Assembly (NCBI RefSeq): GCF_003966955.1
Contig: NZ_AP019367.1
Location: forward strand, 1,364,001 to 1,428,000
Direction: 5' to 3'
Origin: Parolsenella catena
GTDB lineage: Bacteria; Actinomycetota; Coriobacteriia; Coriobacteriales; Atopobiaceae
DNA: 64,000 nucleotides
The position numbers and the translations under genes are program-made. Position 1 is the stretch's first letter. Each line of letters begins with the position of its first letter. The notes below the pieces were generated by a model, which was not told the DNA's origin, searched no databases, and saw nothing but the letters and a program-made list of their open reading frames with translations. Positions 1-16,450 of this stretch are shown here, one piece after another.

Positions 1-1882
1 AAGGTAATACCAATTTGCACCGTCCTGCAGCCAGCCAGTCCCCATTGCGCCACTGGTCGGATCAAGGTAATACCAAGAGCCACTCTCTGACGCCCAACCC
101 GTCTTCATCGCCCCCGATTCAGACAACAGATACCAGTTGGGACCAATTTGATTCCAGCCAGTCTGCATCGCACCGGAGCTTTCGAACCAGTACCAGGCGC
201 CAGCGATGTAGTCCCAGCCCGTAGCCATAGCGCCAGATGCCTCAAAAAAGTACCAAGTTCCGTCAACTTGCCTCCAACCGACCGCCATCTTTCCGGCGTC
301 ATCAAACCAATACCATGTGCCGCCGATCTTTTGCCAGCCGATCGCCAAACTGCCGTTGGACACGTAGTACCAAGCGTCATTAATCAGACTCCAGCCGGGC
401 CGCAGGCTCACATATCCAACCCACCTGCCATCCGAGGAGAATTCTGAATATTGACCGTCGACGCGTCTCACGCCGACCGCCATTGCGCCAGAGCTATCAA
501 ACCAGTACCATGCGCCGTCGATTAATTCCCAACCGGTCCGCATTAATCCATCGGCATCGAAGTAATACCATGCTCCGCTGATGTTCTGCCAGCCGGTCAC
601 CCTTAGAGAGTCATCACCAACATATGAATATGAAGAATCTTCTTTAATCCACGAGTTGCGTAACGACCTCGATGAATGGTCGAAGAAAACATAACCATCC
701 GCAACTCGTTGCCAGCCTTCTTGGACAGCACCAGGACGGTTTCCTTCGAATGCCACGTAACATCCCGCATAGCTATTGTGCCAAATGGTCTTCGGGGCCG
801 GATCCATGTTGATCCCCATTCCATTCGGATCAAGTTCAACAACAAAAGCTGGTTTGTTCGCCGCGATGCAGTCGTCGCAGTTAAAGAAAAGAGGCCTGAT
901 CCCCTCGAGGGCATTGAGCGTTTGATCCCACAGTAGGTTATAAACACCCGTCTGGAATACGATCTCCGGGGACAAGGTGGCCATGTAGTCCGGTGTATTA
1001 GAGTTGGGCCCACCGTGGTGCCCCAGCTTCATGAAATCAATGTGTCCCAGTGTTTGGGCAAGCCTATCTTCATCGCCATCTGAATTGCAGATATCACCCG
1101 CAAGATAAGCAATTTTTTCCGCCGCTCGCCACCTTTATGCCTAGGGAAATATAGTTAGCATCTGCCACTCCCGCAGTCTCATAAGATGAATCCGTGTTCA
1201 CAAGCTCGATATGTGCATTACCGAAATCAAATTCGGGCCTACATACATTCGAGCCGGGCTCCGGATTCTCGGGGGCAGCTTCGTCAAAATCAAGATATAA
1301 GTCCGCTCCGACTTCTTTTGCGGCATTTACAAGATCGTCGTAGACATACTGGTTATCCCAAAGGCCCCAAGGCGAAGTCAGGTAGCTATCATCGTACCGC
1401 GGCGTATATACCTTGCTTGGCTTGTACTTACGAATAATCAACCCCGCATTGCCAATATGGTCGCTGTGTGGATGCGTGCCGATATAGAAGTCGAAATTGT
1501 CTTCAGTTACGCCAAGAGAATCCAGATATGAAAGAACTTTGTCTTCGACTCCATGTCCGATCGTAGTTCCGGCCCTAAACGGATGGCGAGGATTAGAGCC
1601 ATCTGGATAGTCGCTGCTCTCACCGGAATCGACCATCCCAAAGCGGCCGTTACTCTCAATGATAATTGCGTCTCCTCCGGCACACGAAAGGTCCAGGCTA
1701 CCCCCAGCAAAAGGCAACACGTGAATCCTTGTCACGCCCTCCTCGGCAGAGGCAACGCGTGGCATCGCCAGGATGGAAAGGACTAGCAGAACAAACACAG
1801 CAAGCACCATCTCACAGAAAGACAGGATGCGCTTGGTTTTGAAATAAGCGTTAGCAGGCGCCACCAAAAACTCCTTCGCCAT
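1..1882 (-). CDS. pce: Pce/CbpE-like phosphorylcholine esterase with choline-binding repeats; frameshifted and cut by the window edge
   Basis: Secreted metallo-beta-lactamase-fold hydrolase followed by choline-binding GW repeats. Residues 1-46 form a long signal peptide ending ASA. The catalytic head has the metal motif H137-x-H139-x-D141-H142 (THPHSDHIGN), a second-metal Asp in LAGD and a later LGHHGG. Its stretches DAIIIESNGRFGMVDSG, PDGS and LWDN match what I recall of pneumococcal Pce (CbpE), which removes phosphocholine from teichoic acid. About a dozen repeats follow and run off the left edge. Frame is lost at a run of six A (plus strand T, 1113-1118). The natural frame stops at 1094; with five A it continues GGKIAYLAGD and stays open to base 1. 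This is either a real inactivating or phase-variable indel or a homopolymer sequencing error. Family call is strong; substrate is inferred from homology and the lic genes beside it. Confidence 0.85.
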
Positions 1883-1958
1883 TAATTGCTCAGCAAATTA
1901 TAGGTACAGAGGGCAATCAAATTTGACGGATCTCGAGAGAGCATTGCGAGAGAAATGG

Positions 1959-2001
1959 AAACTAAACAGTAGTTCAGTTTTGTGATGTGCTAGATTATAA
2001 T
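1959..2001 (+). promoter_or_regulatory. Putative lic promoter with overlapping inverted repeat
   Basis: A perfect TATAAT at 1996-2001 lies about 60 bases before the licCA start. A weak -35 (TTCAGT, 1973-1978) sits 17 bases upstream. An inverted repeat, AAACTAAAC (1959-1967), AGTA, GTTCAGTTT (1972-1980), with 8 of 9 positions matching, overlaps the -35. It could be an operator, perhaps for the HTH domain of the downstream protein. Inferred from sequence only. Confidence 0.5.
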
Positions 2002-2062
2002 TGAACGCATAGCCTACTTACATCCATTGGCACAAACCTTTGGATATGTCCTAGGGAGCATC

Positions 2063-3829
2063 ATGCTCGATAAAAAATCATTCACCGTTCTCAACGCCCT
2101 TCGTCAGACCCCGGGCACCAGCCAGCGCGATATCGCAGCTTCCTCTGGACTTTCGCTCGGCACCGTCAACGCGGCAATGAAGGCCACCATCAAGGCCGGA
2201 CTCGTTCAAGATGGAACTCTCACAAGCGCCGGCCTCCAGGCGCTCGCGCCCCACAAGGTCGAAAACGCCGTCATCATGGCCGCCGGCCTCTCCTCTCGCT
2301 TTGCCCCCATCTCGTATGAGAAGCCCAAGGGCCTGCTCAAAGTTCGCGGAGAGGTCCTCATCGAGCGCCAGATCGAACAGCTCCTCGAAGCAGGCATTAC
2401 GGATATCACCGTGGTCGTGGGCTACAAGAAGGAGTACTTCTTCTACCTCCGCCAGAAATACGGTGTCAATATCGTCAACAATGACGAGTACGTCTCTCGC
2501 AACAACAACGGCTCGCTTTATCGAGTCCGCGAAAAGCTCGGCAATACCTACGTCTGCTCCAGCGACGATTACTTTACCGAGAACCCGTTTGAGCCTTATG
2601 TCTACAAGGCCTACTACTCCGCGCAGTACGCCGCGGGCGACACTAAGGAATGGTGCATCACCACGGGTGCTCAGGACCGAATCACCAAGGTCGTTGTCGG
2701 AGGCTCAAACTCTTGGTACATGCTCGGGCATGTCTACTTTGACCGCACGTTCTCGAAGCGCTTTGCCGAAATTCTCGAAAGCGAGTACAACGACCCGGAG
2801 ACCGTCGACAAACTGTGGGAAGACCTCTACATCGACCACATCAAGGAACTCGATATGACGATGCGCCCCTACCCCGCTGGCGTCATCAACGAGTTTGACT
2901 CTCTTGACGAACTTCGCGCCTTTGACCCGCATTTCCTTGAGAACGTCGACTCTGAAATCTTTGACAACATCACGGAAATCCTTGGGTGCACCAAGGCGGA
3001 GATTCATGATGTCTACCCCCTCAAGCAGAGTCTTACGAATCTCAGCTGCCACTTTGCCACCAACGATGGCGAGTATGTCTATCGTCATCCCGGCGTAGGC
3101 ACAGAGCTGCTCGTTAACCGAGCTAGCGAATATGCAGCGCTCAAGAAGGCCAAGGAGCTTGGCCTTGACGACACGTTCATCCACGAGGATCCCGAACGCG
3201 GTTGGAAGATCTCGAAGTTCGTGACGAATGCGAAGCAACCGGATCCGCACGATCAGACTCAGATGGCTCGCATGATGCGGATCTGCCGCACCCTCCATGA
3301 GTCAGGCGCAAGCGTTGAGACAGAGTTTGACTTCTACAAGGAGGCAAAGCGCTATGAGTCCCTGCTCCTTGAGAAGGGACCCATCGACATCCCTGGCTAC
3401 TGGGATCTTGCAGGTAAGGTCGACCAACTCGAGAAATTTGTCATTGCCGACGAAGCACCCAAATGTCTCTGCCATAACGACTTCTTTTATCTCAACTTCC
3501 TTATCGACGAGTCTGACAAGTACTACCTCATCGACTGGGAGTATGCAGGCATGAGCGACTACGCCAACGACTTTGGCACTTGTTGCGTTTGCTGCGAGCT
3601 CAAACCGAACGAAGTAGATGCCGCACTCGATGCTTATTTTGGCCGCCCCGCCACAAACGCAGAGCGCACCCACAACTATGCCCACATCGCACTCGCAGGC
3701 TGGTGCTGGTATCTCTGGGCGCTTCTGAAGGAAGCCGAGGGCGACTTCGTTGGCGAATGGCTCTACATCTACTACAACTACGGCACCGAGTACCTTACGA
3801 AGGCTCTCGCTCTCTACAAGGAGGACTAG
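2063..3829 (+). CDS. licCA: HTH - phosphocholine cytidylyltransferase (LicC) - choline kinase (LicA) fusion
   Basis: Single 588-residue protein with three parts. Residues about 1-60 are a winged-helix/HTH of MarR-like sequence (TSQRDIAASSGLSLGTV). Residues about 68-290 are a LicC-type nucleotidyltransferase with AAGLSSRF and the KPKGLL lysine motif, which makes CDP-choline from phosphocholine. The rest is a LicA-type choline kinase with the Brenner-like HNDFFYLN (about residue 471) and IDWEYAG (about 490). Both reactions lead to phosphocholine decoration of surface glycopolymers. I chose the ATG at 2063, preceded by AGGGAG; an upstream TTG at 2027 lacks a good ribosome site. licB follows after 2 bases. 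The HTH suggests autoregulation, but this is inference. Confidence 0.93.
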   Translation: MLDKKSFTVLNALRQTPGTSQRDIAASSGLSLGTVNAAMKATIKAGLVQDGTLTSAGLQALAPHKVENAVIMAAGLSSRFAPISYEKPKGLLKVRGEVLIERQIEQLLEAGITDITVVVGYKKEYFFYLRQKYGVNIVNNDEYVSRNNNGSLYRVREKLGNTYVCSSDDYFTENPFEPYVYKAYYSAQYAAGDTKEWCITTGAQDRITKVVVGGSNSWYMLGHVYFDRTFSKRFAEILESEYNDPETVDKLWEDLYIDHIKELDMTMRPYPAGVINEFDSLDELRAFDPHFLENVDSEIFDNITEILGCTKAEIHDVYPLKQSLTNLSCHFATNDGEYVYRHPGVGTELLVNRASEYAALKKAKELGLDDTFIHEDPERGWKISKFVTNAKQPDPHDQTQMARMMRICRTLHESGASVETEFDFYKEAKRYESLLLEKGPIDIPGYWDLAGKVDQLEKFVIADEAPKCLCHNDFFYLNFLIDESDKYYLIDWEYAGMSDYANDFGTCCVCCELKPNEVDAALDAYFGRPATNAERTHNYAHIALAGWCWYLWALLKEAEGDFVGEWLYIYYNYGTEYLTKALALYKED

Positions 3830-3831
3830 CG

Positions 3832-4770
3832 ATGAAGTTCGGATTATTCAGCGGAATTCTCTGGGGCCTCGACACGGTAGTGCTTGGTATCGCCCTCTCA
3901 ATGAGCCCTTACATCGGTACGGCAGAGGCCGTTGCCTGCGCCGCAATTGCGAGCTCGTTTCTTCACGATGCGGCATGCGCTTTCTGGCTTGCTATCTACA
4001 TGGGCGTCCGTGGGCGCTTCAAGGACACGCTCGCGGCGCTTAAGACCAAAAGCGGCCTCATCGTTGTTGCGGGTGCCCTGCTCGGCGGCCCCATCGGCAT
4101 GACGGGCTACGTCCTTGCAATCAACAACATCGGTCCGGCCTACACGGCCATCATCTCTGCCTTCTACCCCGCACTCGGCGCTTTCCTCTCATTCGTCCTT
4201 CTCAAGGAGAAGATGAGCGCCAAGCAGATTGCCGCGCTTGTCGTTGCTTTGCTCGGTGTCATGGCAACTGGATACATCTCTGCCGGCGATGCCGAAATGG
4301 GCAATACCGCGCTCGGCCTCGCAGGTGCTGTGCTGGCCGTGATTGGCTGGGGCTCCGAAGCCGTTCTCTGCGCCTGGGGCATGAAGGACGATGCCGTTGA
4401 CAACGAGACCGCACTCCAGATTCGCGAAACGTCCTCCGCGCTCGTCTATGCAATCGTCGTGCTCCCGCTTTTTGGCGCATGGGGCTTCACGGCAACCGCG
4501 ATACCCAGCCTCGCCACTAGCGTAGTCGCACTTTCCGGACTTGCCGGCGCGGCCTCGTACCTCTTCTACTACAAGGGGATCTCGGTCATTGGCGCCGCAA
4601 AGGCAATGGCGCTGAACATCTCGTACTCGGCCTGGGCAGTAGTCTTCGGCTTCATTCTCCAAGGTACCGTGCCGAGCGTTGCGACCATTTTCTTCTGTGT
4701 TCTCATCCTCGTGGGCACCGTCCTTGCCGCGTCGGACTGGAACGAGCTGTTCGGCCGCAAGGCGGCATAG
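3832..4770 (+). CDS. licB: LicB-type choline transporter (DMT/EamA superfamily)
   Basis: A 312-residue hydrophobic protein with about ten predicted membrane segments in two EamA-like halves. GPAYTAIISAFYPALGAF and FVLLKEKM are typical of the first EamA repeat, and YLFYYKGI lies in the second. Location two bases after the LicC-LicA stop codon, in one transcription unit, is the classical lic arrangement, so uptake of free choline for the kinase is the likely role. The unit ends at the hairpin just downstream. Choline specificity rests on context; the DMT superfamily assignment is clear. Confidence 0.88.
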   Translation: MKFGLFSGILWGLDTVVLGIALSMSPYIGTAEAVACAAIASSFLHDAACAFWLAIYMGVRGRFKDTLAALKTKSGLIVVAGALLGGPIGMTGYVLAINNIGPAYTAIISAFYPALGAFLSFVLLKEKMSAKQIAALVVALLGVMATGYISAGDAEMGNTALGLAGAVLAVIGWGSEAVLCAWGMKDDAVDNETALQIRETSSALVYAIVVLPLFGAWGFTATAIPSLATSVVALSGLAGAASYLFYYKGISVIGAAKAMALNISYSAWAVVFGFILQGTVPSVATIFFCVLILVGTVLAASDWNELFGRKAA

Positions 4771-4795
4771 TCAGCGAGCAATTTCATGGCAAATT

Positions 4796-4829
4796 TTTAG
4801 GGCCGCCCTCGCGCGAGGACGGCCCTAAA
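4796..4829. terminator. Bidirectional terminator between licB and the NlpC/P60 gene
   Basis: Near-perfect hairpin: TTTAGGGCCG on the left pairs with CGGCCCTAAA on the right, with CCTCGCGCGAGG inside. U-rich flanks occur on both sides, so it can serve the two convergent genes. Confidence 0.85.
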
Positions 4830-4857
4830 TCAATGCTAGTGATATGTTTTTGCCGAC

Positions 4858-7393
4858 TTAAACGAACGGCCGCAGAACACCTCGAATATCAGACCTATAT
4901 GTCGCCGAAGCTATACGCGTACCCAAGCGAGGGCTTGCCGCCTCAATGATTCGGCCGTTGCCGATGTAAATGGCAACATGGCCCGAGTAGCAAACGATAT
5001 CACCTCTCTGTGCCTGCGAAAAATCAAGGTGAAGGAACCCGCTATAGTTCCAAAGGTCGTTGGCATAGTGGTCATGCCCTGGCGTGAAGTAGTGATCATA
5101 GGGGTTCATCGGGAACGTATCGACCCCGCACGCATATAGGCACTGGAGCACGAGGCCAGCACAGTCAACGCCAACGCCAGGTGCGCAAGCATAGTCCCAA
5201 ATATAAGGTGTACCAAGGTACTCATACGCTCGCCCAACGAACGCATTGATACAGTCCTCGCGGGTAGCGTCAACCGATATGCGTGACGGCGTTGCATAGG
5301 CAAACTTACCAGAGCTATAGCTTGGCAGCGTCACGTTCCAGGAGCTTACCTGTGGATACTGAGAGGGATTCTGCCAGCCGACCTTGTCACACGTACCGTC
5401 AGTCCAGAAATAGCGACGATATCCGTCAATGTAGCGGGCACCCGTTGCCATACGGCCGCTTCCGTCAAGCCAGTAGTACTTTCCGCCCAGCTCGAGCCAG
5501 CCCGTTTTCATTGTTCCGTCGCTGTTCATGTAGTACCAGGCGTCATTTGGGACCCGCACCCACCCGGTTGCCATTGCTCCATCATCGCGGAGCCAATACC
5601 AAGAGCCGCCATCCGAAAGCCAGCCCGTCTTCATCACATATGTCATCGGATCGAAGTAATACTGCTGGCCGTCAATCAATATCCAGCCCGAGCTGAGCTT
5701 GCCCTCCGCATCCGCGTAGAACCGAGACCCGCCAAGGTCAATCCAGCCAGAGGCAAGAGAGCCATCCCCCAACGTCAGCACACCGTCACGAAGCGTCAGC
5801 GCAGAGAGCGAGCCATCGCTAGATGCCCAGCTCTTAGAGCCATCTTCGTTGTCAACCCATGCGTTTCGGGCAACGCCAGAGCCGGCATCAATCTGATACG
5901 CCTTTCCATCGATTTCGATACGCCCCAGCTTCGCCGGATGTCTTGTTCCCACGGTTTCGGAGCTAATAGTGCTCGGATCAAAGTAAAAACGACCGGACGG
6001 GGTGTCCACCCATCCAGAAACGCACAGTCCGGAGCCATTAAGCCAGTACTTGCTTCCGTTGTCGTCCAACAAAGTAGAGGAAAGCATCCCACCGGAGCCA
6101 GACAGGTAGTAGCTACCGTCTCGGAAATCAAGCCAACCGGTCAGCATCTTGGCAGTAGTTGGGTCCATCCAGTACCAAGAGCCGCCTATGAACTGCCAAC
6201 CCATGAGGAGTCTGCCATCATTGCTGCTGGGCGTTGCGTAGTACCAGCATTGATTGGCATCGTCCCATGCCCAGCCAGTTGCCATGGCACCCGAGGAAGT
6301 CAAGAAGTACTTGGAATCCCCAAGGCTAAGAACGCCGGTTCTCATCGCATAGTCTGACCAGTCCATCCAGTACCAGGCCCCGTTAATCCAACGCCAGCCG
6401 GCTTGAAGGGCACCAGAGGAGCTGGCAAGATACCATCTCCCATTGACCAAGCACCAGCCTGAGCTCCCCATGCCACAGGAAGAGTCAAAGACGTAGCTCT
6501 CGGAGCCAACCTGGGCTACCTCGTTCTGGGCGGCAGCACCAGAGCCGCCAAGCCAATACCAAATACCACCTTGGTAGAGCCAGCCTGTAGCCATGGTGCC
6601 ATTGGAATAGAGATAGTACCAGCATCCGTCAACATACTGCCAACCGGTGAGCATGGCCCCAGACGGACTCATGCAGTACCAGGCGCCGCCATCCCAGACC
6701 CAGCCGGTTGCCATTTTGCCATCAGTGGGGTTCAGCCAATACCAGTTACCGTTAATCCAGTGCCAGCCGGTCTGCAGCGCGCCTTGAGAAGCCCAGTACC
6801 ACTCAGCATCATCCAGCACCCAGCCATCCGCATAGCCGAGCCACTTTCCCTGTCCATCAAATCGAGACCAGCGTCCCTCGGCAAATGCCTGGTTTATAGC
6901 CATCTTGCCCGAAGTCACATCGAACCAGTACCATGCGCCGTCAAGCAGCTGCCAGCCAGTCTGCATGACCCCTGAGCCAGGAGAAAAGTAATAACGTGCC
7001 CCCATCGATATCTTGGAACCCCGTGAGCACGGCTCCATCGGAAGAGAAACGGTAACGGGCACCGTTTAGTTCAAGCCACTCGTCTTTTAGAGGTGCACCG
7101 TCCTTCCAATATTCACGGCCGGCATCCGTGTCAACCCAGCCGTCAGGCGTTGACGGCGCCTCGGATACCCCAGTTGAGGTGACAGGGTCATCCGCTGACG
7201 AGGTAGTTGGCCCAGCAACTGCAGACGGAGCCTCATCGCTCGCACTCATAGTTACCAGCGAAGCGTCTGCTCCGTTCTCGATGCCAGGCACGTCATCCGT
7301 TGTCACCTGCCCAGCAAGCGCCGGAACAGGACGGATGAGAGCCGCCATCATCAGTCCGGCCACCATGGGAAATGCAGCTTTCTTAAATCTCAC
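4858..7393 (-). CDS. Choline-binding NlpC/P60 peptidoglycan hydrolase, frameshifted near the N-terminus
   Basis: If read through, an 844-residue secreted protein. It starts at a GTG (7393) with GGAGG six bases upstream. A signal peptide ends near PALAG, then comes a low-complexity Ser/Thr/Ala/Asp linker, a long array of GW choline-binding repeats, and a C-terminal NlpC/P60 domain with catalytic Cys in VDCAGLV and His in GHVAIYIG. It probably cleaves peptide stems while docked on phosphocholine. Frame breaks at a run of five G (plus strand C, 6999-7003): four G would give IDGARYYFSPGSG, a normal repeat. The downstream part alone (4858-7062) has no signal peptide. This is the second homopolymer frameshift in this locus. 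Confidence 0.88.
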
Positions 7394-7551
7394 TATTGTC
7401 CTCCCACCTTGGGCAACCCAACGCAGCCACTGAAGGCCGAAACTACTCCGCTAAATCAAAAACATATTAGCAACTTAGGCTCCTCCTCCCTTAAGAGAAT
7501 CTGAAAGGAATAGACTTTACCTGCAAAAAAGGGGGGAATGGAAGGGACAGT
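7394..7551. other. Divergent promoter region of two choline-binding protein genes
   Basis: 158 bases separate the divergent NlpC/P60 and CHAP-like genes. It carries the GGAGG of the minus-strand gene. ATAGACTTT near 7510 recurs upstream of the L,D-transpeptidase gene near 9714, so it may be a shared promoter element. No convincing -35 pair was found. Confidence 0.35.
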
Positions 7552-9690
7552 ATGAACAGAGCACAACGATTGCTAGCGCTAGGCTCATGCCTTGCGCTCT
7601 GCGCTTCTGCGGCAGTGGCAATTCCAAACACCGCGTCAGCAGAAACCGTCGCGAACTTGCCTCAGCCCGCTTCGGAAACGATCGAGACTCCCTCTCCAGA
7701 AGAGAACAAGGCCCAAAGCGACAGCGTAACGGCAAGCGCTGAAGCCGAGGGCGAGACGCCCACATCGGCGACCGAAAGGGAGCCCGTTGCCGAAGAAGTA
7801 CCAGACGGTTGGCACGGCGGCACCGGATCCCTCTGGTATCAGCAGGACGGAGAGAGGCTAACCAATCGTTGGTTATACGACAACGGAAGCTGGTTCTACT
7901 TCTCTGAGGAGGGAGTTGCCCTCACCGGCGTTCAGAAGATTGACGGCTCTCTTTACTGCTTCGATAACGATGGCCGCATGCAGGCTGGCTGGACGCTCTG
8001 TGATGGCACCTGGTATCACGCCAAGTCCTCTGGAGCTCTCGACATCGGCTGGCTTTACACGGGCGGGAGCTGGTATCTTCTCGCCGATGACGGCTCGATG
8101 TTGACCGGGATCCAAGAGATTAACGGCAGCAGCTACCTCCTCCAGGCCAACGGAGCCATGGCCACGGGCTGGGGCGTCGACCCCGCGTCGGGTCGCTGGT
8201 GCTTCGCAGACGCCTCGGGTTGTCTCAAGACCGGTTGGCAATATATAAGCGGCACGTGGTACCTGATCGGTGACGACCACCTTATGCTGACGGGCCTCCA
8301 AACGCGCGGCGATGCAGCCTACTATCTGCAAGATTCGGGCGCCATGGCAACCGGTTGGGCGTGGGACTCATCCAGTATGTCCTGGTACCTCGCCAATGGC
8401 TCGGGCGCGCTCGCATCCGGTTGGCAGCGGGTTAGCGGCAGCTGGTACTGGCTCGACCCGCAGTCAAAGGCCATGGGCACGGGATGGCTCAATCTTGATG
8501 GTGCAAGGTATCACCTCTCCGGATCCGGAGCCATGGACACCGGGTGGCTGCTCGATGCTAGAAGCTGGTACTGGCTTGATCCCTCCGTCGGAAACATGCG
8601 CACCGACTGGCAGAGGGTTGGTGGTAGCTGGTACTTCATGGACGAGGCAGACGGTAGGATGCACACTGGCCTGCTCAACCTTAGTAGCGCCAAGTACTAC
8701 ATGACGCCCTCGGGCACCATGGCAACGGGCTGGGCCTATGATGAGAGCAGCTCATGTTGGTATCTCGCCTCAAGTGACAGCTCGGACGGACGCCTGCTCA
8801 CTGGATGGCAGAAGGTTGGTTCAACCTGGTACTATCTGCGCCCAGACAATGCTCAAATGTTCACCGGCTGGTACCAAGAGGGTGACGCCCTTTATTTCCT
8901 CAAGTCATCCGGCGCGATGGCCGCAAATGAATGGGTCGATTACATCGGCGACACAAGGCTCTACATGAGCGCCGATGGCCATGCAACGTTCGAAATGCGG
9001 AATGGCCTTATCTACAAGAACCGCAATTCGGACGAGCTTGCATCGGGTTGGGTAAGGCAGGACGACTCCTGGCTGTACATCAATCAAGATGGATCCCTGG
9101 CTAAGGGATGGCTCAACCTCAACGAGACTTGGTACTATCTCGACCCGAATAATGGCACCATGCGCACCGGCTGGGTCTTGGTCGATGGCCTGTGGTACTG
9201 GCTTGACTCCTCTGGCGCAATGGCCACCGGCTGGACAAATATCGGCTCTTCGCGCTGGCAGCTCGATGATTACACCGGGGCACTCCACGAGCCCGAGCAG
9301 GCACCTTCGACCGACCTCCAGAGAAGAATCGTAGAGGCTGCTGGAGTCACCCCTAGCCCGGGAGGCGGACTTTGCGCTATGTGGGTCAGCCAAGTCTTCT
9401 CCCGTGCGGGCCTCGGGTATCCAGAGGGCAACGCCTGCGATATGTTCTGGCAGTGGTGCAGCCGCTCCGACCTTCGTGAGCTCAAGGTTGGCATGATCGT
9501 TGCCATCCCATCCCACACCCATACCTATCTCGGTGGCATCTATGGGCATGTCTGCATCTATATCGGCGGGGGCATGATCATGGACAATGTTGGCTATGTC
9601 CGCACCATGCCGCTCAACGACTGGCTCGAGTACTACACAACCACGCACAGCCCCAAGTGGGGGTGGTGCAACAACCAGCCGCTTTCTTAA
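7552..9690 (+). CDS. Choline-binding protein with C-terminal CHAP/NlpC-like cysteine peptidase domain
   Basis: A 712-residue secreted protein. A signal peptide (residues 1-30, ending TASA) precedes an acidic Glu/Ser/Thr-rich linker (about 30-85), more than twenty GW repeats of the G-x-WYYL-D-x-x-G-x-M-x-TGW type, and a C-terminal domain from about residue 585. That domain has a likely catalytic Cys in GLCAMWVSQVF, His in YGHVCIYIG and a downstream Asn/Asp region, fitting a CHAP or NlpC/P60-superfamily amidase or endopeptidase. It probably cuts peptidoglycan while attached to phosphocholine. Neighbours are related proteins, each with a different catalytic head. The exact subfamily is uncertain. 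Confidence 0.85.
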   Translation: MNRAQRLLALGSCLALCASAAVAIPNTASAETVANLPQPASETIETPSPEENKAQSDSVTASAEAEGETPTSATEREPVAEEVPDGWHGGTGSLWYQQDGERLTNRWLYDNGSWFYFSEEGVALTGVQKIDGSLYCFDNDGRMQAGWTLCDGTWYHAKSSGALDIGWLYTGGSWYLLADDGSMLTGIQEINGSSYLLQANGAMATGWGVDPASGRWCFADASGCLKTGWQYISGTWYLIGDDHLMLTGLQTRGDAAYYLQDSGAMATGWAWDSSSMSWYLANGSGALASGWQRVSGSWYWLDPQSKAMGTGWLNLDGARYHLSGSGAMDTGWLLDARSWYWLDPSVGNMRTDWQRVGGSWYFMDEADGRMHTGLLNLSSAKYYMTPSGTMATGWAYDESSSCWYLASSDSSDGRLLTGWQKVGSTWYYLRPDNAQMFTGWYQEGDALYFLKSSGAMAANEWVDYIGDTRLYMSADGHATFEMRNGLIYKNRNSDELASGWVRQDDSWLYINQDGSLAKGWLNLNETWYYLDPNNGTMRTGWVLVDGLWYWLDSSGAMATGWTNIGSSRWQLDDYTGALHEPEQAPSTDLQRRIVEAAGVTPSPGGGLCAMWVSQVFSRAGLGYPEGNACDMFWQWCSRSDLRELKVGMIVAIPSHTHTYLGGIYGHVCIYIGGGMIMDNVGYVRTMPLNDWLEYYTTTHSPKWGWCNNQPLS

Positions 9691-9762
9691 TTGTCCTCCC
9701 GCTCCCCAATCGGGATAGACTTTGAAAAGCAAGGATCCTAGACGTTACTCGAAAGGAGCAAG

Positions 9763-12093
9763 ATGAGCACCACAAGCAGAAAGGCAGCTGCCTTTATCGC
9801 CGCCTTGGCTCTCGGCGGCTCGCTGAGCGTAGCATCGGTGGCAGTTCCTCGCCTTGCGTGGGCAGATGATGCTATATCCACAGAGTCAGCTGCCCCTACC
9901 GACGAGGTGAGCGCCGCAGGCAATCAAGAGCCCGAGGCCCCCGCTTCCGACGTCCCCGAAGAGCCCGTAGAACAGCCCAAGCAGGGTTGGCAGAACGAGG
10001 ACGGGACAAGGCGCTACTACGACGAGAATGGCTCGATTCACAAGGGCTGGCTCCATCTTGACGGCGCCTGGTACTGGCTCAACGAGACCACCGGAAACAT
10101 GGCCACGGGTTGGCAGTACGTAAACGGCTCCTGGTATTGGCTCGACCCCGTATCCGGCGTGATGGCAACAGACCGCACGGATTGCAACGGAAGCTGGTCG
10201 GACTTCTCCGCGTCGGGAGCATGGAGCGGCTATGCCAGCGGCTGGGACCTGAGGGATGGCGCCTGGCACTGGCTTGAGAACGGCGGACAGCTCGCACGCG
10301 GGTGGAGATACGTCAACGGCTCCTGGTACTGGATGGACGATTCCGGCGCCATGCGCACCGGCTGGGTCAGCATCAGCGGATCCCGTTATCATCTCTCAGC
10401 CTCCGGCGCCATGGACTCCGGTTGGCTTCTGGATGGTGGAAACTGGTATTGGCTCGACCAGTCAAACGGCGACATGCGAACCGACTGGCAGTGGATTGGC
10501 GGACGCTGGTACTGGGCAGACCCCGAAACGGGTATCTGCGCCCAGAACGAGACCAGGGAAATCGGTCCGGAGCTCTACGCTTTTGATTCCTCGTGTGCGA
10601 TGGGCCAGAGTGGATGGGTGCTCGCCAACAATACGTGGTACTGGGCTGGACAGTCTGGCGCCCTTGAAAGCGGCTGGCATTATGTTGGCGGATCCTGGTA
10701 TTGGATGGACCACCAGTCCAAGGCCATGGCGACCGGTCTCCTCGATTTCAATGGAACGAAGTACTACATGATGCCCTCGGGCGCCATGGCGACCGGTTGG
10801 GCCTATGACCAGACTGAAAATTGCTGGTATTACGCTACCAACTCCTCTTCTGATGGCCACCTTCTCACCGGCTGGCAATGGATTGACGGCGCCTGGTATT
10901 GGATGGACAGCACCACCGCCAAAATGCAAACCGGTTGGCTGAGCGTTGGCGGTAAGACATACCACCTCTCCAACTCTGGCTCCATGGACAGCTCTTGCTG
11001 GATCGACGATAGCGATGGCAGCTCTTCTCTGCTTGGCAGTGACGGCGCTCTGACGACGAAGATCGTCGATAACAAGGTCACCATGTACAACGGCTCCGAC
11101 GGCTCCAAGCCCTCCGACGGTCTTACCCAGATTGGCGGTGCCTGGTTCTACCTCATTGATAGCACAATCCAGCACGGCGCTATCGACATTGATGGCACAA
11201 CCCACCTCTTTGACGAGAAGACGGGCAGGGCAGTTACCGGCTGGCACACGGACGAGAACGGCGCTCGTTATCACTATGACGAGAAGGGCGTAAAGCAGGT
11301 CGACTGCTGGGTTCTCGATGGCTCATGGTATCTCCTGGGCCAGGATGGCAGCCCGCTAACGGGATGGCAGAACCGGGGAGGTGCCTACTACTATCTCGAC
11401 CCGTCTTCTGGGGCCATGAAGACCGGCTGGCTTAAGACCGACGGCGATTGGTACTGGCTCGATACAACGAGCGGCGCTATGAAGACCGGCTGGGTCTGGG
11501 ATGGCGCCAATTGGTACTACATGAACGCTAGTGGCAGGATGCAGACCGGCTGGCTCAATCTGAGCGGAACCTGGTATTGGCTTGACACCACGAGCGGTGC
11601 CATGGGCACCGGTTGGATCTGGGATGGCGGCGCATACTACTTCTGCGCTTCCGACGGGCACTGGATTGACGTCAACGTTCAGTGGCAGGACATGTTCAAT
11701 TGGGCACAGGACTACTCAAGCGCAACGAACTACCTCATCCTCGTAGACACCCAGAACTGCAGGGTAGGCATCTACTATGGCCGCTATGGCGCATGGGCGC
11801 CTGTAAAGGAGTTCATCTGCTCCCCCGGCGCTCCTTCGACGCCAACCGTGAAGGGCCAGTTTACGGTTCAGGACAAGGGCTACGTCTTTGGCCATGGCTA
11901 CAGCTGCTACTACTACACGCAGTTCTATATCGATTACCTGTTCCACTCCGTTCTGTACTATCAGGACACTTTCCGAATTCAGGACGGACGCCTTGGCCAG
12001 CACCTCTCCCATGGATGCGTCCGCCTTGCAATCGACAATGCCAAGTGGATCTACGACAACATTCCACGCGGAACTAAGGTTGTTGTCTGGTAG
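9763..12093 (+). CDS. Choline-binding L,D-transpeptidase (YkuD family)
   Basis: A 776-residue secreted protein with AAAGGAG just before its ATG. Signal peptide (about 1-36), Glu/Pro-rich linker to about 70, then GW repeats occupying most of the protein. The last 135 residues are a YkuD L,D-transpeptidase domain: LILVDTQNCRVGIYYG start, the conserved His in the FHSVLYY stretch and the signature SHGCVRL with catalytic Cys. It should form 3-3 cross-links or attach proteins in peptidoglycan. Near residues 420-500 the repeats are diverged. A strong terminator follows at 12116. Confidence 0.93.
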   Translation: MSTTSRKAAAFIAALALGGSLSVASVAVPRLAWADDAISTESAAPTDEVSAAGNQEPEAPASDVPEEPVEQPKQGWQNEDGTRRYYDENGSIHKGWLHLDGAWYWLNETTGNMATGWQYVNGSWYWLDPVSGVMATDRTDCNGSWSDFSASGAWSGYASGWDLRDGAWHWLENGGQLARGWRYVNGSWYWMDDSGAMRTGWVSISGSRYHLSASGAMDSGWLLDGGNWYWLDQSNGDMRTDWQWIGGRWYWADPETGICAQNETREIGPELYAFDSSCAMGQSGWVLANNTWYWAGQSGALESGWHYVGGSWYWMDHQSKAMATGLLDFNGTKYYMMPSGAMATGWAYDQTENCWYYATNSSSDGHLLTGWQWIDGAWYWMDSTTAKMQTGWLSVGGKTYHLSNSGSMDSSCWIDDSDGSSSLLGSDGALTTKIVDNKVTMYNGSDGSKPSDGLTQIGGAWFYLIDSTIQHGAIDIDGTTHLFDEKTGRAVTGWHTDENGARYHYDEKGVKQVDCWVLDGSWYLLGQDGSPLTGWQNRGGAYYYLDPSSGAMKTGWLKTDGDWYWLDTTSGAMKTGWVWDGANWYYMNASGRMQTGWLNLSGTWYWLDTTSGAMGTGWIWDGGAYYFCASDGHWIDVNVQWQDMFNWAQDYSSATNYLILVDTQNCRVGIYYGRYGAWAPVKEFICSPGAPSTPTVKGQFTVQDKGYVFGHGYSCYYYTQFYIDYLFHSVLYYQDTFRIQDGRLGQHLSHGCVRLAIDNAKWIYDNIPRGTKVVVW

Positions 12094-12115
12094 AGCCCAG
12101 AGAGCATAATTGTTG

Positions 12116-12152
12116 ACGACCCTGTTGAAGAAATCCAACAGGGTCGTTTTCG
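12116..12152 (+). terminator. Rho-independent terminator after the L,D-transpeptidase gene
   Basis: A perfect 12-bp stem (ACGACCCTGTTG with CAACAGGGTCGT) and 8-base loop are followed by TTTCGTTT. Confidence 0.92.
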
Positions 12153-12166
12153 TTTAGGCAGGCCCT

Positions 12167-12172
12167 TATAAT
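12167..12172 (+). promoter_or_regulatory. Consensus -10 element upstream of the lysozyme-like choline-binding gene
   Basis: TATAAT lies 32 bases before the ATG at 12204, right after the preceding terminator. No good -35 is visible at 16-18 bases, so it may rely on an activator. Confidence 0.5.
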
Positions 12173-12203
12173 GTAAAAATCGCAGCTATGAAATGGAGCT
12201 CAA

Positions 12204-14204
12204 ATGATGAATAGTAAGGCTGCTTTTTTCCTCAAGCACCTGCCAGCGCTGCTTGTTCTTACCCTCTTCCTTGCAGCCCCTGTCAGCGCCAGGGCAGACA
12301 CCCTATCTGACCTCTATGGAACGACACACGACCGCAGCGAGGTTATTGAAGCCGGCGAGGCCGATGACCCCAATGCCGAGCCGGACGATTTATCAGATAA
12401 TGATGTCCAGACCTATTCGCTGGACGACAGCTCTGACATCGCTTTGTATAGCGAGCAAACCCAGTCCGTCTCGCCACGGTACGTTTCATCCGAGATGCTC
12501 TACTTTTGCAAATGGGAGAGCGGGCAAAACTATAACCAGGGCCTTAGCTGGGGCGATGGATACCATGCAATGGGCTACTTCCAGTTTGACAACCGCCATG
12601 ACCTTGGTTCATTCCTAAAGGCAGTCTATGACTATAATCCGTCTAAATACTCAGCGCTTGCAATCATAGGGAGCCGCTATAACTGGGACGTGGACGGTGA
12701 AACGCGTAGTGGCGGCTCCTTCACGCAACTCGGCAATGACCTCAATCAGGCCTGGCATGGCGCCTATGCCGCAGATTCCAGCGAGTTCTCGGCACTTCAA
12801 AATGATTGGGCCTACACGCAGTACTTTGACGGACCTGTCGGCATTCGCGGAAGCCTGCGAGCAATGGGGATCAATATCGACAACCGCTCAGACAGCGTGA
12901 AGAGCCTCGTATGGGGCATGGCAAATCTGTTTGGGCAAGGTGGGGGCAGCACCTACGTTTCCCGCGGACTCTACTATGGTGCCAATTGGTTCATCAAGAA
13001 CTCCGGCGTCAACGGCGCTATGGATGATGGGCAATTTGTTGAAACGCTCTGCGATTACGTTATCAATAATGTCGCCCGACGCTATCCGTCTCAGCCTGAG
13101 TACTGGCAGGGTTGGCAGAATCGCTATAAGGATGAAAAGGCCCATTACCTCTCCGTAATCAGACGATGGGTTTACGAAAGCGGAACCTGGTACCTTGAGA
13201 CTGTGTCCGGAGGAGTTAGAGCCAAGGGCTGGGCATACGTCAATGGCTCCTGGTATTACCTCGATCCCAATTCGGGCGCCATGAGAACTGGATGGGTCCT
13301 TGTTGATGGCTACTGGTACTGGTTGGATTCTTCCGGTGCCATGAAGACGGGTTGGCTACTTCTTGGAGGAACATGGTACTGGCTGAACAGCTCTGGAGTC
13401 ATGGCCACCGGATGGCAGATCATCGGTAGCTCCTGGTACTGGTTCAACCCCTCTTCTGGCGCCATGACCGCATCGAGGACCCTTATCGACGGGCTCTGGT
13501 CAGACTTCGCAAGCGGCGGCTCGTGGATTGGGTATTCCTCTGGCTGGGATACGAGAGATGGGGCCAAGTACTGGCTGGAAAACGGCTCAAGAGCAGCCGG
13601 CTGGCGTCAGATAAGCGGCAATTGGTATTGGTTCGATCAGAGCGGCAAGGCTGCAATTAACGGGACCGTCTCCTTCGGTTCATCGGCTTACGCGTTTGAT
13701 AGCGACGGTCGCATGGGAGAGGCGGGGTGGTGTTTTGCAAATGGCACTTGGTATCTCGCATCAGAATCCGGCGTGCTCGTAAATGGCTGGCAGCGAGTCG
13801 GAGGTGTTTGGTATTGGCTTGACAGATCAACTTATGCCATGAAGACAGGCTGGTGTCTCCTTGGGAGCACCTGGTACCATCTCTCCTCTTCCGGCTCTAT
13901 GGACACCGGCTGGCTCCTCGATGGCAACGCCTGGTATTGGCTAGAGCCCTCGAATGGTGACATGAAAACTGGGTGGCAGTACATCGGAGGAGTTTGGTAT
14001 TACCTCACCCCCAACGGAGGAGCCATGCAAACGGGCTGGATCCTTGATGGGAAGACCTGGTACTTCCTTGATGGCAGCGGCGCTATGCAATCTTCACGTT
14101 GGGTTGGCAACTACTACCTTCTTTCCAGCGGCGCCATGGCAACAAGCCAGTGGATAGGTCCCTATTACGTTGACAGCAGCGGGCGCTGGGTACCTGGGGC
14201 ATAG
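12204..14204 (+). CDS. Choline-binding protein with N-terminal lysozyme-like domain
   Basis: A 666-residue secreted protein. Tandem ATGs at 12204 and 12207 follow GGAG. Signal peptide ends at ARA (about residue 31), then an acidic linker to about 90. Residues about 93-310 form a globular domain with KWESGQNYNQ, GYFQFDNRHDL and WAYTQYF. The Glu in KWESG followed by G-Y-x-QFD resembles the Glu plus substrate-groove pattern of lysozyme-like muramidases, so a glycan-strand hydrolase is my inference. The second half is GW choline-binding repeats, ending in short WVGNYYLLSSG-type units. Which muramidase family it belongs to is not resolved. Confidence 0.75.
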   Translation: MMNSKAAFFLKHLPALLVLTLFLAAPVSARADTLSDLYGTTHDRSEVIEAGEADDPNAEPDDLSDNDVQTYSLDDSSDIALYSEQTQSVSPRYVSSEMLYFCKWESGQNYNQGLSWGDGYHAMGYFQFDNRHDLGSFLKAVYDYNPSKYSALAIIGSRYNWDVDGETRSGGSFTQLGNDLNQAWHGAYAADSSEFSALQNDWAYTQYFDGPVGIRGSLRAMGINIDNRSDSVKSLVWGMANLFGQGGGSTYVSRGLYYGANWFIKNSGVNGAMDDGQFVETLCDYVINNVARRYPSQPEYWQGWQNRYKDEKAHYLSVIRRWVYESGTWYLETVSGGVRAKGWAYVNGSWYYLDPNSGAMRTGWVLVDGYWYWLDSSGAMKTGWLLLGGTWYWLNSSGVMATGWQIIGSSWYWFNPSSGAMTASRTLIDGLWSDFASGGSWIGYSSGWDTRDGAKYWLENGSRAAGWRQISGNWYWFDQSGKAAINGTVSFGSSAYAFDSDGRMGEAGWCFANGTWYLASESGVLVNGWQRVGGVWYWLDRSTYAMKTGWCLLGSTWYHLSSSGSMDTGWLLDGNAWYWLEPSNGDMKTGWQYIGGVWYYLTPNGGAMQTGWILDGKTWYFLDGSGAMQSSRWVGNYYLLSSGAMATSQWIGPYYVDSSGRWVPGA

Positions 14205-14222
14205 TCGGTCCTCTTTTCAAGC

Positions 14223-14258
14223 AAGCGGCGGCGGATGTAGCTCCATCCGCCGCCGCTT
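14223..14258. terminator. Bidirectional terminator between convergent choline-binding genes
   Basis: Perfect GC-rich stem: AAGCGGCGGCGGATG pairs with CATCCGCCGCCGCTT around a 6-base loop, then TTTGTCTT. It lies between the stop codons of two convergent genes. Confidence 0.88.
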
Positions 14259-14262
14259 TGTC

Positions 14263-16320
14263 TTAGTCCATCTGAGCGCAGTTTCTACACTGCCGCTTCG
14301 CGCCAGATGCTAGCACCGATTGAAGCGTCGGATACGTTTGATAGTTCGATACAGATCCCATGGTCCTGCACCAGTGATTGTGATAGACATCGCTGTTTCC
14401 AACTCGATAATAAGGTCCTTGCCCATAGCCCGGAATCCAGGCACCGTCAGAGCCTACATAGTAGGGCCCAATCCATTGATTGGTCGCCATTGCCCCGGAG
14501 CCAGAAAGATAGTAGTTCCCCACCCAAGCATTAGAAGCCATGGGCCCCGAGTCGTAGAAGTAATACCAGGTGCCACCGATAACCTGCCAGCCCTTGGCCA
14601 TCGAGCCATTGCCAAAGAAGTAATACCACGTGCCACCAACGAGCTGCCAGCCGGTTTGCATAGCGCCGGAGCCTTCCATGTGATACCAGGCTCCACCCGT
14701 GCTAATCCACCCAGTCTGCATGAGACCAGAAGAGTCCAGGAAGTACCAGCTTCCGCAATATGAAAGCCACCCAGTCTGCATAGCTCCGGATTGGTTCAGA
14801 TAATACCAAGCACCATTGAGATCCAGCCATCCGGAAGCCATGGCCCCACTGGCTCCCAAGTAGTACCAATTCCCAAGCCACTTCCAGCCGGTGACCATCG
14901 CGCCGGACGGCTCGAGATAGAACCACTGCCCAGAGACAGACTGCCAGCCCGTTTTCATCGCTCCAGACGGGTCGAGGTAGTAGCGAGCCCCACCATCATC
15001 AAGCCATCCGGTCTTCATGGCTCCGGTCGACAGGTCGAGGTAGTACCAGCTTCCATTGACATAAGCCCATCCTCGACAGGCCTGGCCGGTAGAGTCGCAA
15101 TAATACCAAGTCCCGTTATCTAGATTCCATCCGGGGTGACCCGAGGTAAAGCCTTTGGGGCGATATGACGCGCTTACACTAAACGCAGCTGCACTTGCTT
15201 CAAATCTAACGTCAACTTCACTGGAACTCGTTTCCCACCTCATTTCATTGAGCTCGCTAGCCACGATCCCGTTGATGATTCCCGAGATACTCTCTGAATC
15301 GTTTGCATTTGTAGCGGCAACGCTAAACGAGGTCTCCTTCGCATCAAGATGCTGCTGAATCTCCGGTGCATAGGCGTCCGCCCACTTCTGGGCCTCACCG
15401 TTACGCACGAAGTAGTTATTCGCAAGCGTCGTCTCGTGGGCTCCATACGTGGAGCCATCCGAGCCCTTCCATTTGCCATGCGCAATGGCCATAAGATCAT
15501 CGTTCAGGCCAAAGTAGAGATGCCTTTGGTCAAAGCCATACCAGTTATCGCTCGTGTCATCCCACGTGCAATCGACCTGGCACCACTCGTCATCAATCTT
15601 CACGGCGTTCCAGGTATGGCCGTCACCGGCATCGCGGGTCTCCTCATTCTCGATGCCTGCAGTCGCAAGAAGCTTGGAATAGGCCTCCTCATACGCCTGG
15701 CACGTACCCGTCCCTCGGCAAAGCGCACTCTCGGCGCTGCTCCACGTCAAGGAATTGTCATATTCCAGCTGCTCAAGCAGCCAGTCATGGAGCCAGAGAG
15801 CCTTCTCGTACTCGGAGCCATCGGTCTCGGCATTGCACTGCGCAACGGCCTTGGCAACACGATTAGAGACTGAAGGATAGTTCGAATCGGAGACCTTTAC
15901 AGACACGGTCTTGCGAAGATACAGGCCCGTGTTCGCCATGTCCATGACCTGGAACTGGAACTGGTAGGCTCCAGAGGCCATCGGCGTGAACTGATAGTCC
16001 GTCTCGGCCTGAACTCCCGTACAGCCAGGCATGTGAGCCGGGTCCATGACAGAGTCGTAGCTTCCATCAGTGTCGAAATAAAACGGCGCGGACATGTAGT
16101 ACTTGTACTGGCCGCTCCCGCCGCTCGCTGAGACGTGGAGTGTCAAGGGCTGCCCCGCTACGGGATCGTTATACGAGACCGCAAGAGTGATGTCCCCTGC
16201 CGTCTCTGACTCGACATGCGCATGGCCGCCTTCTCCAGCAAACGCCGGACTTGCAAAGGCGCAAACCCCAGCAATTGCCACAAACAGAGCGGCAATTATC
16301 CCGAAGAGTCGCTTTCTCAT
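14263..16320 (-). CDS. Choline-binding transglutaminase-like protein with C-terminal His/Cys motif
   Basis: About 685 residues from the ATG at 16320, which has GAGG upstream; an in-frame ATG at 16359 is less likely because it would put 13 residues before the signal peptide. Order: signal peptide ending AFA, a beta-rich Ig-like region (about 35-150), a transglutaminase-like domain (about 155-310) with Cys in GTGTCQAY, His in DGHTWNAV and Asp in VDCTWDD, a linker, then about twelve GW repeats. The last 50 residues hold VYHNHWCRTM and CRNC, a His/Cys pattern resembling small zinc-binding tails. The catalytic triad is complete, so it may act as a protease or cross-linking enzyme on wall proteins; its substrate is unknown. 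Confidence 0.88.
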   Translation of the reverse strand: MRKRLFGIIAALFVAIAGVCAFASPAFAGEGGHAHVESETAGDITLAVSYNDPVAGQPLTLHVSASGGSGQYKYYMSAPFYFDTDGSYDSVMDPAHMPGCTGVQAETDYQFTPMASGAYQFQFQVMDMANTGLYLRKTVSVKVSDSNYPSVSNRVAKAVAQCNAETDGSEYEKALWLHDWLLEQLEYDNSLTWSSAESALCRGTGTCQAYEEAYSKLLATAGIENEETRDAGDGHTWNAVKIDDEWCQVDCTWDDTSDNWYGFDQRHLYFGLNDDLMAIAHGKWKGSDGSTYGAHETTLANNYFVRNGEAQKWADAYAPEIQQHLDAKETSFSVAATNANDSESISGIINGIVASELNEMRWETSSSEVDVRFEASAAAFSVSASYRPKGFTSGHPGWNLDNGTWYYCDSTGQACRGWAYVNGSWYYLDLSTGAMKTGWLDDGGARYYLDPSGAMKTGWQSVSGQWFYLEPSGAMVTGWKWLGNWYYLGASGAMASGWLDLNGAWYYLNQSGAMQTGWLSYCGSWYFLDSSGLMQTGWISTGGAWYHMEGSGAMQTGWQLVGGTWYYFFGNGSMAKGWQVIGGTWYYFYDSGPMASNAWVGNYYLSGSGAMATNQWIGPYYVGSDGAWIPGYGQGPYYRVGNSDVYHNHWCRTMGSVSNYQTYPTLQSVLASGAKRQCRNCAQMD

Positions 16321-16450
16321 ATGTTCCTCTTCCAACCAGATATAAATAAGGAGTGCCACCCCCTAGACAGGAATGGCACTCCTCAAATTAGCACGTATCA
16401 GGTTGTTTTAAGACGCGAGCGGCGCTCTTGTCCTCAAACGGTTTCGGCGT

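Follow-up and report, generated by a model that had tools for sequence, protein, structure and literature searches.

Can a bacterium of the class Coriobacteriia put phosphocholine on its surface, hold its own enzymes there and take the phosphocholine off again, in a manner resembling the pneumococcus? The question is raised by the left end of a 64,000-nucleotide stretch (the window; G000:C1:1364001-1428000) of Parolsenella catena, an Atopobiaceae bacterium whose genome (G000) is a single contig of 1,796,691 bases. A sequence-only reading had named a LicC-LicA fusion, a LicB-like transporter, a Pce/CbpE-like esterase and five further choline-binding proteins in this region. All of them were found in the window by open reading frame (ORF) and Pfam searches and by PDB matches, and the fusion protein carries, in addition, an N-terminal winged helix-turn-helix (wHTH) domain that the reading had not mentioned. 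I consider it very likely (roughly 85%) that this is a phosphocholine surface-decoration and surface-enzyme locus. Pfam and PDB matches, clustering and co-occurrence support it well. Judged from sequence, it appears to be a counterpart, in Coriobacteriia, of the pneumococcal phosphocholine system, distinguished by unusual head enzymes, dense clustering of its genes, a glycan side that varies and what is probably an enzyme-regulator.

The LicC-LicA protein has NTP_transf_3, APH and Choline_kinase domains behind HTH_24 (40.8 bits; cut-off 21.9), and its PDB matches are LicC (1jyk, E 5.1e-42), a choline/ethanolamine kinase (3dxq, 4.8e-28) and LicA (4r77, 4.4e-26). By alignment, D107, W136, W191, E216 and D218 of LicC are kept, with a numbering offset that I deduced myself; D107, W136, W191 and D218 are presumably the labels of the LicC site. 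T29, D176, Y197, W251 and W254 of LicA, from the site-residue list in PMC4364537, are kept as well. The licB gene starts two bases past the licCA stop codon, and the only PDB match of its product at E<=0.01 is LicB (7b0k, E 1.1e-30). The genome has two LicD (PF04991) matches. One of them adjoins the esterase gene, which itself extends past the left window end; one LicD gene (L031:14958-15818) comes to within about 180 bases of the left window edge. Thus, the Lic pathway, as outlined in PMC13385700, is completed by LicD. The system had been called complete within 16 kb, which does not hold, since LicD is outside the window and the esterase frame is broken in the assembly. A polysaccharide cluster lies to the left of LicD. 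An acyltransferase, a glycosyltransferase, the second LicD and a TagD-like cytidylyltransferase exceed Pfam cut-offs in it, a GlfT2-like galactofuranosyltransferase scores 23 bits (under the cut-off of 27), and an epimerase, a flippase (without a Pfam match), rmlA, rmlB, rmlC and glf were named by sequence inspection. PF04464 has one partial match, elsewhere in the genome. The phosphocholine acceptor is probably a rhamnose/galactofuranose polymer.

In the six repeat proteins, 82 choline repeats were matched, and both Choline_bind_1 and Choline_bind_3 are above the Pfam cut-off in all six. Among the 61 near-full-length repeats, Trp occupies position 2 in 97% and position 9 in 85%, and Met occupies position 18 in 92%, percentages that are biased because the repeat hidden Markov model was seeded with W/M-containing repeats. 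All 34 genome-wide matches of Choline_bind_1 (PF01473; E<=0.001) fall inside G000:C1:1363983-1379132 (15.2 kb). Thus, the clustering of the repeat proteins is not due to chance. As for the heads, the esterase, NlpC/P60 (31.4 bits; motifs DCAG and HVAIYIG), L,D-transpeptidase (YkuD, 52.9 bits; SHGCVR), lysozyme-like (VgrG3-like_C, 43.1 bits) and transglutaminase (Transglut_core, 32.3 bits; Cys, His and Asp motifs) assignments of the sequence-only reading stood. HPHSDH in the esterase and the motifs just given are active-site motifs. The sixth assignment, a CHAP-like head, is less secure: CHAP scores 17.1 bits against a cut-off of 26, and this head is above no Pfam cut-off and has no PDB sequence match. 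The name is a weak one, backed only by Cys and His motifs, and the AlphaFold2 (AF2) model of the head is unusable (predicted local distance difference test score, pLDDT, 39). The AF2 model of the muramidase-like head has a pLDDT of 64.5, and its first structural matches, 4noo and 4nso (E 0.011 and 0.12), are only suggestive. A PHROGs search of the CHAP-like and lysozyme-like heads returned nothing.

Is the esterase a Pce? The intact esterase of G086, the sole other genome of the same genus within a class sample of 396 genomes, matches Pce in the PDB (2bib/1wra), with 151.8 bits for the 2bib head domain. In G000, a metallo-beta-lactamase head and choline repeats were matched separately, since the gene is not a single ORF in the assembly but is split into two frames. 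The NlpC/P60 gene is likewise split. The frame changes lie inside short homopolymers (window 1113-1118 for the esterase and 6999-7003 for NlpC/P60), and in G086 each gene is one open frame, of 576 and 863 codons from stop to stop, respectively. Sequencing error, decay and phase change are candidate causes. In this strain, phosphocholine may no longer be removed; alternatively, the breaks could be errors of sequencing.

Table 1. Features of the proposed phosphocholine locus, left to right, in window positions
Feature	Position	Strand	Basis or remark
Esterase, second piece: end of metallo-beta-lactamase head and choline-binding repeats	1..1032, off left window end	-	Choline_bind_3 144.7 bits; frame break relative to G086
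Pce/CbpE-like phosphocholine esterase, first piece: signal-like start and metallo-beta-lactamase head, HPHSDH	1094..1882	-	Lactamase_B 33.6 bits
Candidate operator GTTCA-N25-TGAAC, upstream of licCA	1972..2006	.	Conserved upstream of licCA in relatives
licCA: wHTH (HTH_24), LicC-like CTP:phosphocholine cytidylyltransferase and LicA-like choline kinase	2063..3829	+	Pfam and PDB matches; ORF open from TTG 2027, likely start ATG 2063
licB-like choline transporter (EamA/DMT)	3832..4770	+	EamA; LicB 7b0k
Choline-binding NlpC/P60 protein, main piece: repeats and C-terminal catalytic domain	4858..7062	-	Pfam, motifs
NlpC/P60 protein, N-terminal piece (signal-like region), other frame	6941..7393	-	Single open frame in G086
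Choline-binding protein, C-terminal CHAP/NlpC-like Cys-His head (weak assignment)	7552..9690	+	Cys/His motifs
Choline-binding L,D-transpeptidase (YkuD, SHGCVR)	9763..12093	+	Pfam, motif
Choline-binding protein, N-terminal lysozyme-like (VgrG3-like_C) head	12204..14204	+	Pfam
Choline-binding protein, N-terminal transglutaminase-like head (Cys-His-Asp motifs)	14263..16359	-	Pfam, motifs

Gene content, homology, clustering, co-occurrence and motif conservation suggest how such a locus might work. Choline would be taken up by LicB and converted by the fused LicC-LicA to phosphocholine and then to CDP-choline. LicD would use the latter to decorate a surface glycan, the product of the adjacent rhamnose/galactofuranose cluster, with phosphocholine. 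Six proteins, predicted to be secreted, would hold onto the surface phosphocholine via their choline-binding repeats, keeping wall-active heads there: the NlpC/P60 and CHAP-like peptide hydrolases, the L,D-transpeptidase, and the muramidase-like and transglutaminase-like enzymes. The sixth of them, the Pce-type metallo-esterase, would take phosphocholine off again. The winged helix of LicC-LicA, acting at its own promoter, probably couples transcription to the choline supply.

Are these genes found together in other Coriobacteriia? LicCA is present in 152 of the 396 class genomes, Choline_bind_3 in 119 and LicD in 170. LicCA and LicD occur together in 121 genomes, LicCA only in 31, LicD only in 49 and neither in 195 (p 1.8e-32). 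For LicCA and at least ten Choline_bind_3 matches, counts that are lower bounds because only some candidates were scored, the corresponding numbers are 51, 101, 7 and 237 (p 3.6e-17); for LicCA and any repeat match, they are 82, 70, 37 and 207 (p 5e-16). The Pce-type head was found in 26 genomes, all of which have LicCA and 24 of which have repeats. I also chose 40 stretches around LicCA from 39 genomes, most of them from the best LicCA matches; at least one repeat protein lies near LicCA in 19 of these stretches and at least two in 13. Among the best 80 of 476 named loci, a LicB-like gene was found in 44, LicD in 34, repeat proteins in 11 and a Pce-type head match in two, one of the matches being short. 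The same cluster exists in G086, and similar clusters exist in Collinsella aerofaciens (L113) and Slackia exigua (L155). Part of the head set is common beyond the genus: next to LicCA and LicB, S. exigua encodes choline-repeat proteins with CHAP-like (49%), lysozyme-like (41%) and YkuD (63%) heads. With such clusters in other Coriobacteriia and an esterase head that is a clear homologue of pneumococcal Pce, the idea of a separately assembled system was not supported.

Several points weigh against a phosphocholine locus. The genomes share ancestry and are not independent, and the p-values therefore overstate the association. At least ten repeat matches are lacking in 101 of the 152 LicCA genomes, and LicCA is missing from seven of the 58 repeat-rich genomes and from 37 of the 119 with any repeat. 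D105, Y190 and D192 of LicC align to Ser, Leu and Glu in this protein, V178, E213 and Y268 of LicA align to Phe, Cys and Trp, and two genes of the locus are frame-split. The repeat-bearing genomes without LicCA would suit a chance neighbourhood, with repeats that bind glucan or some other polymer and Lic genes that have an unrelated function. Glucosyltransferases and clostridial toxins have repeats of this superfamily too, and both appear in the three whole-protein phmmer lists, two of which have toxin chains at the top, with scores summed over many repeats. The glucan repeat model TIGR04035 gives 67-112 bits for the three proteins scanned, but the NCBIfam models PspA (225-374 bits) and PspC (206-352 bits) outscore it; because the models differ in length and no score reaches its own cut-off (147.7, 850 and 700, respectively), this is a comparison of scores and not of membership. 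No GH70 gene was found in the genome. On the model scores and the lack of GH70, glucan binding was rejected as the main explanation, and the choline-binding character assumed by the sequence-only reading was not contradicted. Coincidence is also at odds with the repeat proteins found beside LicCA and with the confinement of the Pce-type head to LicCA genomes, and I regard it as highly improbable.

A different use of the fused enzyme would be the activation of another amine, ethanolamine or a phosphonate, giving a surface decorated with phosphoethanolamine or 2-aminoethylphosphonate (AEP). The LicC pocket changes listed above would fit this, as would the existence of paralogues with other neighbours. 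In addition, PMC6697681 describes a preference for AEP in related enzymes, the PntC proteins of Atopobium rimae and Treponema denticola, the former of which retains the aromatic residues. However, the kinase domain is fused here, and AEP activation presumably does not need one. The transporter matches only LicB in the PDB, and choline-binding repeats and a Pce-type esterase stand alongside. All 67 distinct LicCA proteins that have an adjacent LicB carry Trp at the position of LicC W136; the 54 without one (of 121 distinct proteins in all) have Tyr there in 30 cases, Trp in 22 and Glu in two. The only genome match to phosphoenolpyruvate (PEP) mutase is at 22.6 bits, under the cut-off of 31.5, which gives no sign of a phosphonate (PntC) route; this route was rejected for G000, and an amine other than choline is quite unlikely. 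It is also very unlikely that CDP-choline goes mainly to a phosphatidylcholine-like membrane lipid and that the choline-binding proteins bind a choline lipid or glycolipid. A LicCA fusion reportedly serves phosphatidylcholine synthesis in T. denticola, and both LicD proteins match an NCBIfam diacylglycerol cholinephosphotransferase model at 66.5 and 70.4 bits, well under its cut-off of 225. Against this, LicD stands at the end of the polysaccharide cluster and differs along with that cluster between G000 and G086, although no genome-wide search for lipid phosphotransferases was made.

How does the proposed phosphocholine locus vary within the genus? When 1332-1382 kb of G000 was compared with G086, the DNA was conserved in blocks at 1336.0-1344.4 kb and to the right of 1366.055 kb, at 85-96%. 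The latter edge corresponds to window position 2055, the start of licCA. Only two rmlB copies align between the conserved blocks. LicD is 48% identical and the first esterase piece 57%, while LicCA is 92% and LicB 86-87% identical. The heads are 95% (NlpC), 96% (YkuD), 99% (CHAP-like), 95% (transglutaminase-like) and 80% (lysozyme-like) identical, and the whole repeat proteins 77-96% where aligned. In this alignment, the genes for the esterase, LicD and the glycan behave as one variable cassette, next to which licCA-licB and the genes of the remaining repeat proteins are conserved. The arrangement resembles a capsule locus beside a fixed set of readers, as far as one genome pair suggests.

What might the winged helix of LicC-LicA bind? 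When the 175 bases before licCA were scanned, 52 of the 67 distinct LicB-linked loci showed convergent GTTCA/TGAAC half-sites no more than 60 bases apart; 50 dinucleotide shuffles gave 0.96 such loci on average and four at most. The start-to-start distance of the half-sites peaks at 29-30 bases, and the strict form GTTCA-N24/25-TGAAC is present at 46 of the 67 loci. Of the 117 occurrences of the strict motif in 2.17 Mb of loci fetched around LicCA, with some genomes in twice, 98 lie no farther than 300 bases from a LicCA start. A+T makes up 77% of the spacer, compared with 53% upstream in general. The G000 genome has eight motif sites against two for the control, and one of the eight is the site in Table 1. 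A promoter -10 element in the spacer was rejected: TATAAT-like sequences occur in 24 of 46 spacers, and shuffling gives 23.4. A promoter scan of window 1880-2080 found nothing. Thus, a winged helix fused to an enzyme and a conserved inverted repeat upstream of its gene are both present, and GTTCA-N24/25-TGAAC is probably the binding site of this winged helix, through which licCA would be autoregulated. I lean slightly towards the reading that wHTH-LicC-LicA is a choline enzyme and a transcription factor in one, which would read the choline supply at the operator of its own gene to set surface phosphocholine, in many Coriobacteriia as well as some Actinomyces and Gardnerella.

Not every result favours this enzyme-regulator. 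The strict motif is missing at 21 of the 67 LicB-linked loci. No half-sites were found upstream of the choline-binding protein genes, and a regulon taking in these genes was rejected for this reason. A held-out test gave a mixed outcome: a site was found within 100 bp of four of ten LicCA starts with a listed position, in nine genomes. The positives were G342, G174 (which shares its genus with the discovery genome G009), G231 and the second listed LicCA of G070; G228, G261, G280, G294, G161 and the first LicCA of G070 had none among the sites listed. The list covers ten of the twelve held-out genomes (G102 and G322 are outside it) and includes five of the six sites of G161, and G384 had been dropped because its operator letters are identical to those of L153 in the discovery set. 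The plain pattern is not confined to LicCA starts in the held-out genomes; genome-wide, it has 2-15 sites per genome and its read-backwards control 0-4. Three A+T-rich operator-like sites surround a LicC-LicA gene of G070 (G070:C1:2372671, 2375823 and 2380360), which may mark a small regulon.

A further point against the phosphocholine reading is that the wHTH-LicC-LicA family is probably wider than choline. Its likely non-choline members include a second paralogue in G000 and a protein of Streptococcus oralis with a different transporter. The second winged-helix LicC-LicA-type gene of G000 is at G000:C1:1126772-1129234 (L194, L200) and is followed by another LicC-like domain in the same open frame. 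A 521-codon open frame upstream of it has a GTTCA-N24-TGAAC site at 1124828, 53 bases before it. The S. oralis relative (L190:10001-11779) is located beside what I take to be another kind of transporter. The strict motif is also upstream of 26 of the 53 scored paralogues without LicB. If the operator does work in this way, its presence upstream of paralogues with other neighbours would indicate a wider family of amine-salvage enzyme-regulators. S. exigua L155 has two LicC-LicA genes and a LicB-like gene.

Is the arrangement new? The four activities of the pneumococcal lic1/lic2 genes (LicA, LicB, LicC and LicD1/2) are present here by homology. Differences from the pneumococcus are the fusion of LicC and LicA to an N-terminal winged helix, glycan neighbours that resemble rhamnose/galactofuranose genes, and a locus that also includes the choline-binding protein genes; those of the pneumococcus are scattered. 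As with pneumococcal Pce/CbpE, LytA, CbpD and Cpl-type lysozymes, a Pce-type head with repeats and wall enzymes on choline repeats are found here, although the esterase is frame-split and L,D-transpeptidase, transglutaminase-like and VgrG3-like muramidase heads are included, for which I know of no pneumococcal equivalent on choline repeats. NadR, an enzyme-regulator composed of HTH, nucleotidyltransferase and kinase domains, has a similar layout, that is, a DNA-binding domain and two enzyme domains of one salvage pathway, but its domains and pathway are different. The lic genes of Olsenella uli and A. rimae are described as relatively near phosphonate-tailoring genes (PMC6697681). The passages on these two species include no choline-binding proteins, esterase, winged helix or operator, and G000, for its part, has no PEP mutase above the cut-off. 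A 2018 review mentions choline-binding (CWB1) repeats in some Actinobacteria, for example, Coriobacteriia, with no locus, Lic genes or enzyme heads in that statement (PMC5817068). A survey from 2023, covering the phosphorylcholine genes of 26 species, does not name Coriobacter, Collinsella or Atopobium in its main text (PMC10434233). Among the matches listed from the open-licence PMC literature, there was no paper on the locus, the fused winged helix or the operator. Thus, lic genes in O. uli and A. rimae and repeats in Coriobacteriia are already in print, and the conserved GTTCA/TGAAC sites upstream of licCA appear to be new.

Relatives in Collinsella, Slackia, Atopobium and Actinomyces belong to the human oral and gut flora. 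Anti-phosphocholine antibodies and C-reactive protein have so far been studied mainly with the pneumococcus and Haemophilus. If phosphocholine is displayed, these gut and mouth relatives would be likely targets or inducers of such antibodies and targets of C-reactive protein. The esterase, transferase and wall-enzyme genes lie side by side, which would allow simple removal experiments in a culturable strain, and an enzyme with a DNA-binding domain and a conserved operator would make choline-dependent control of surface decoration directly testable. The G+C content is 51-61% in window 1-32000 and 60-73% in 32001-64000; the lower value of the left half could reflect an acquired region.

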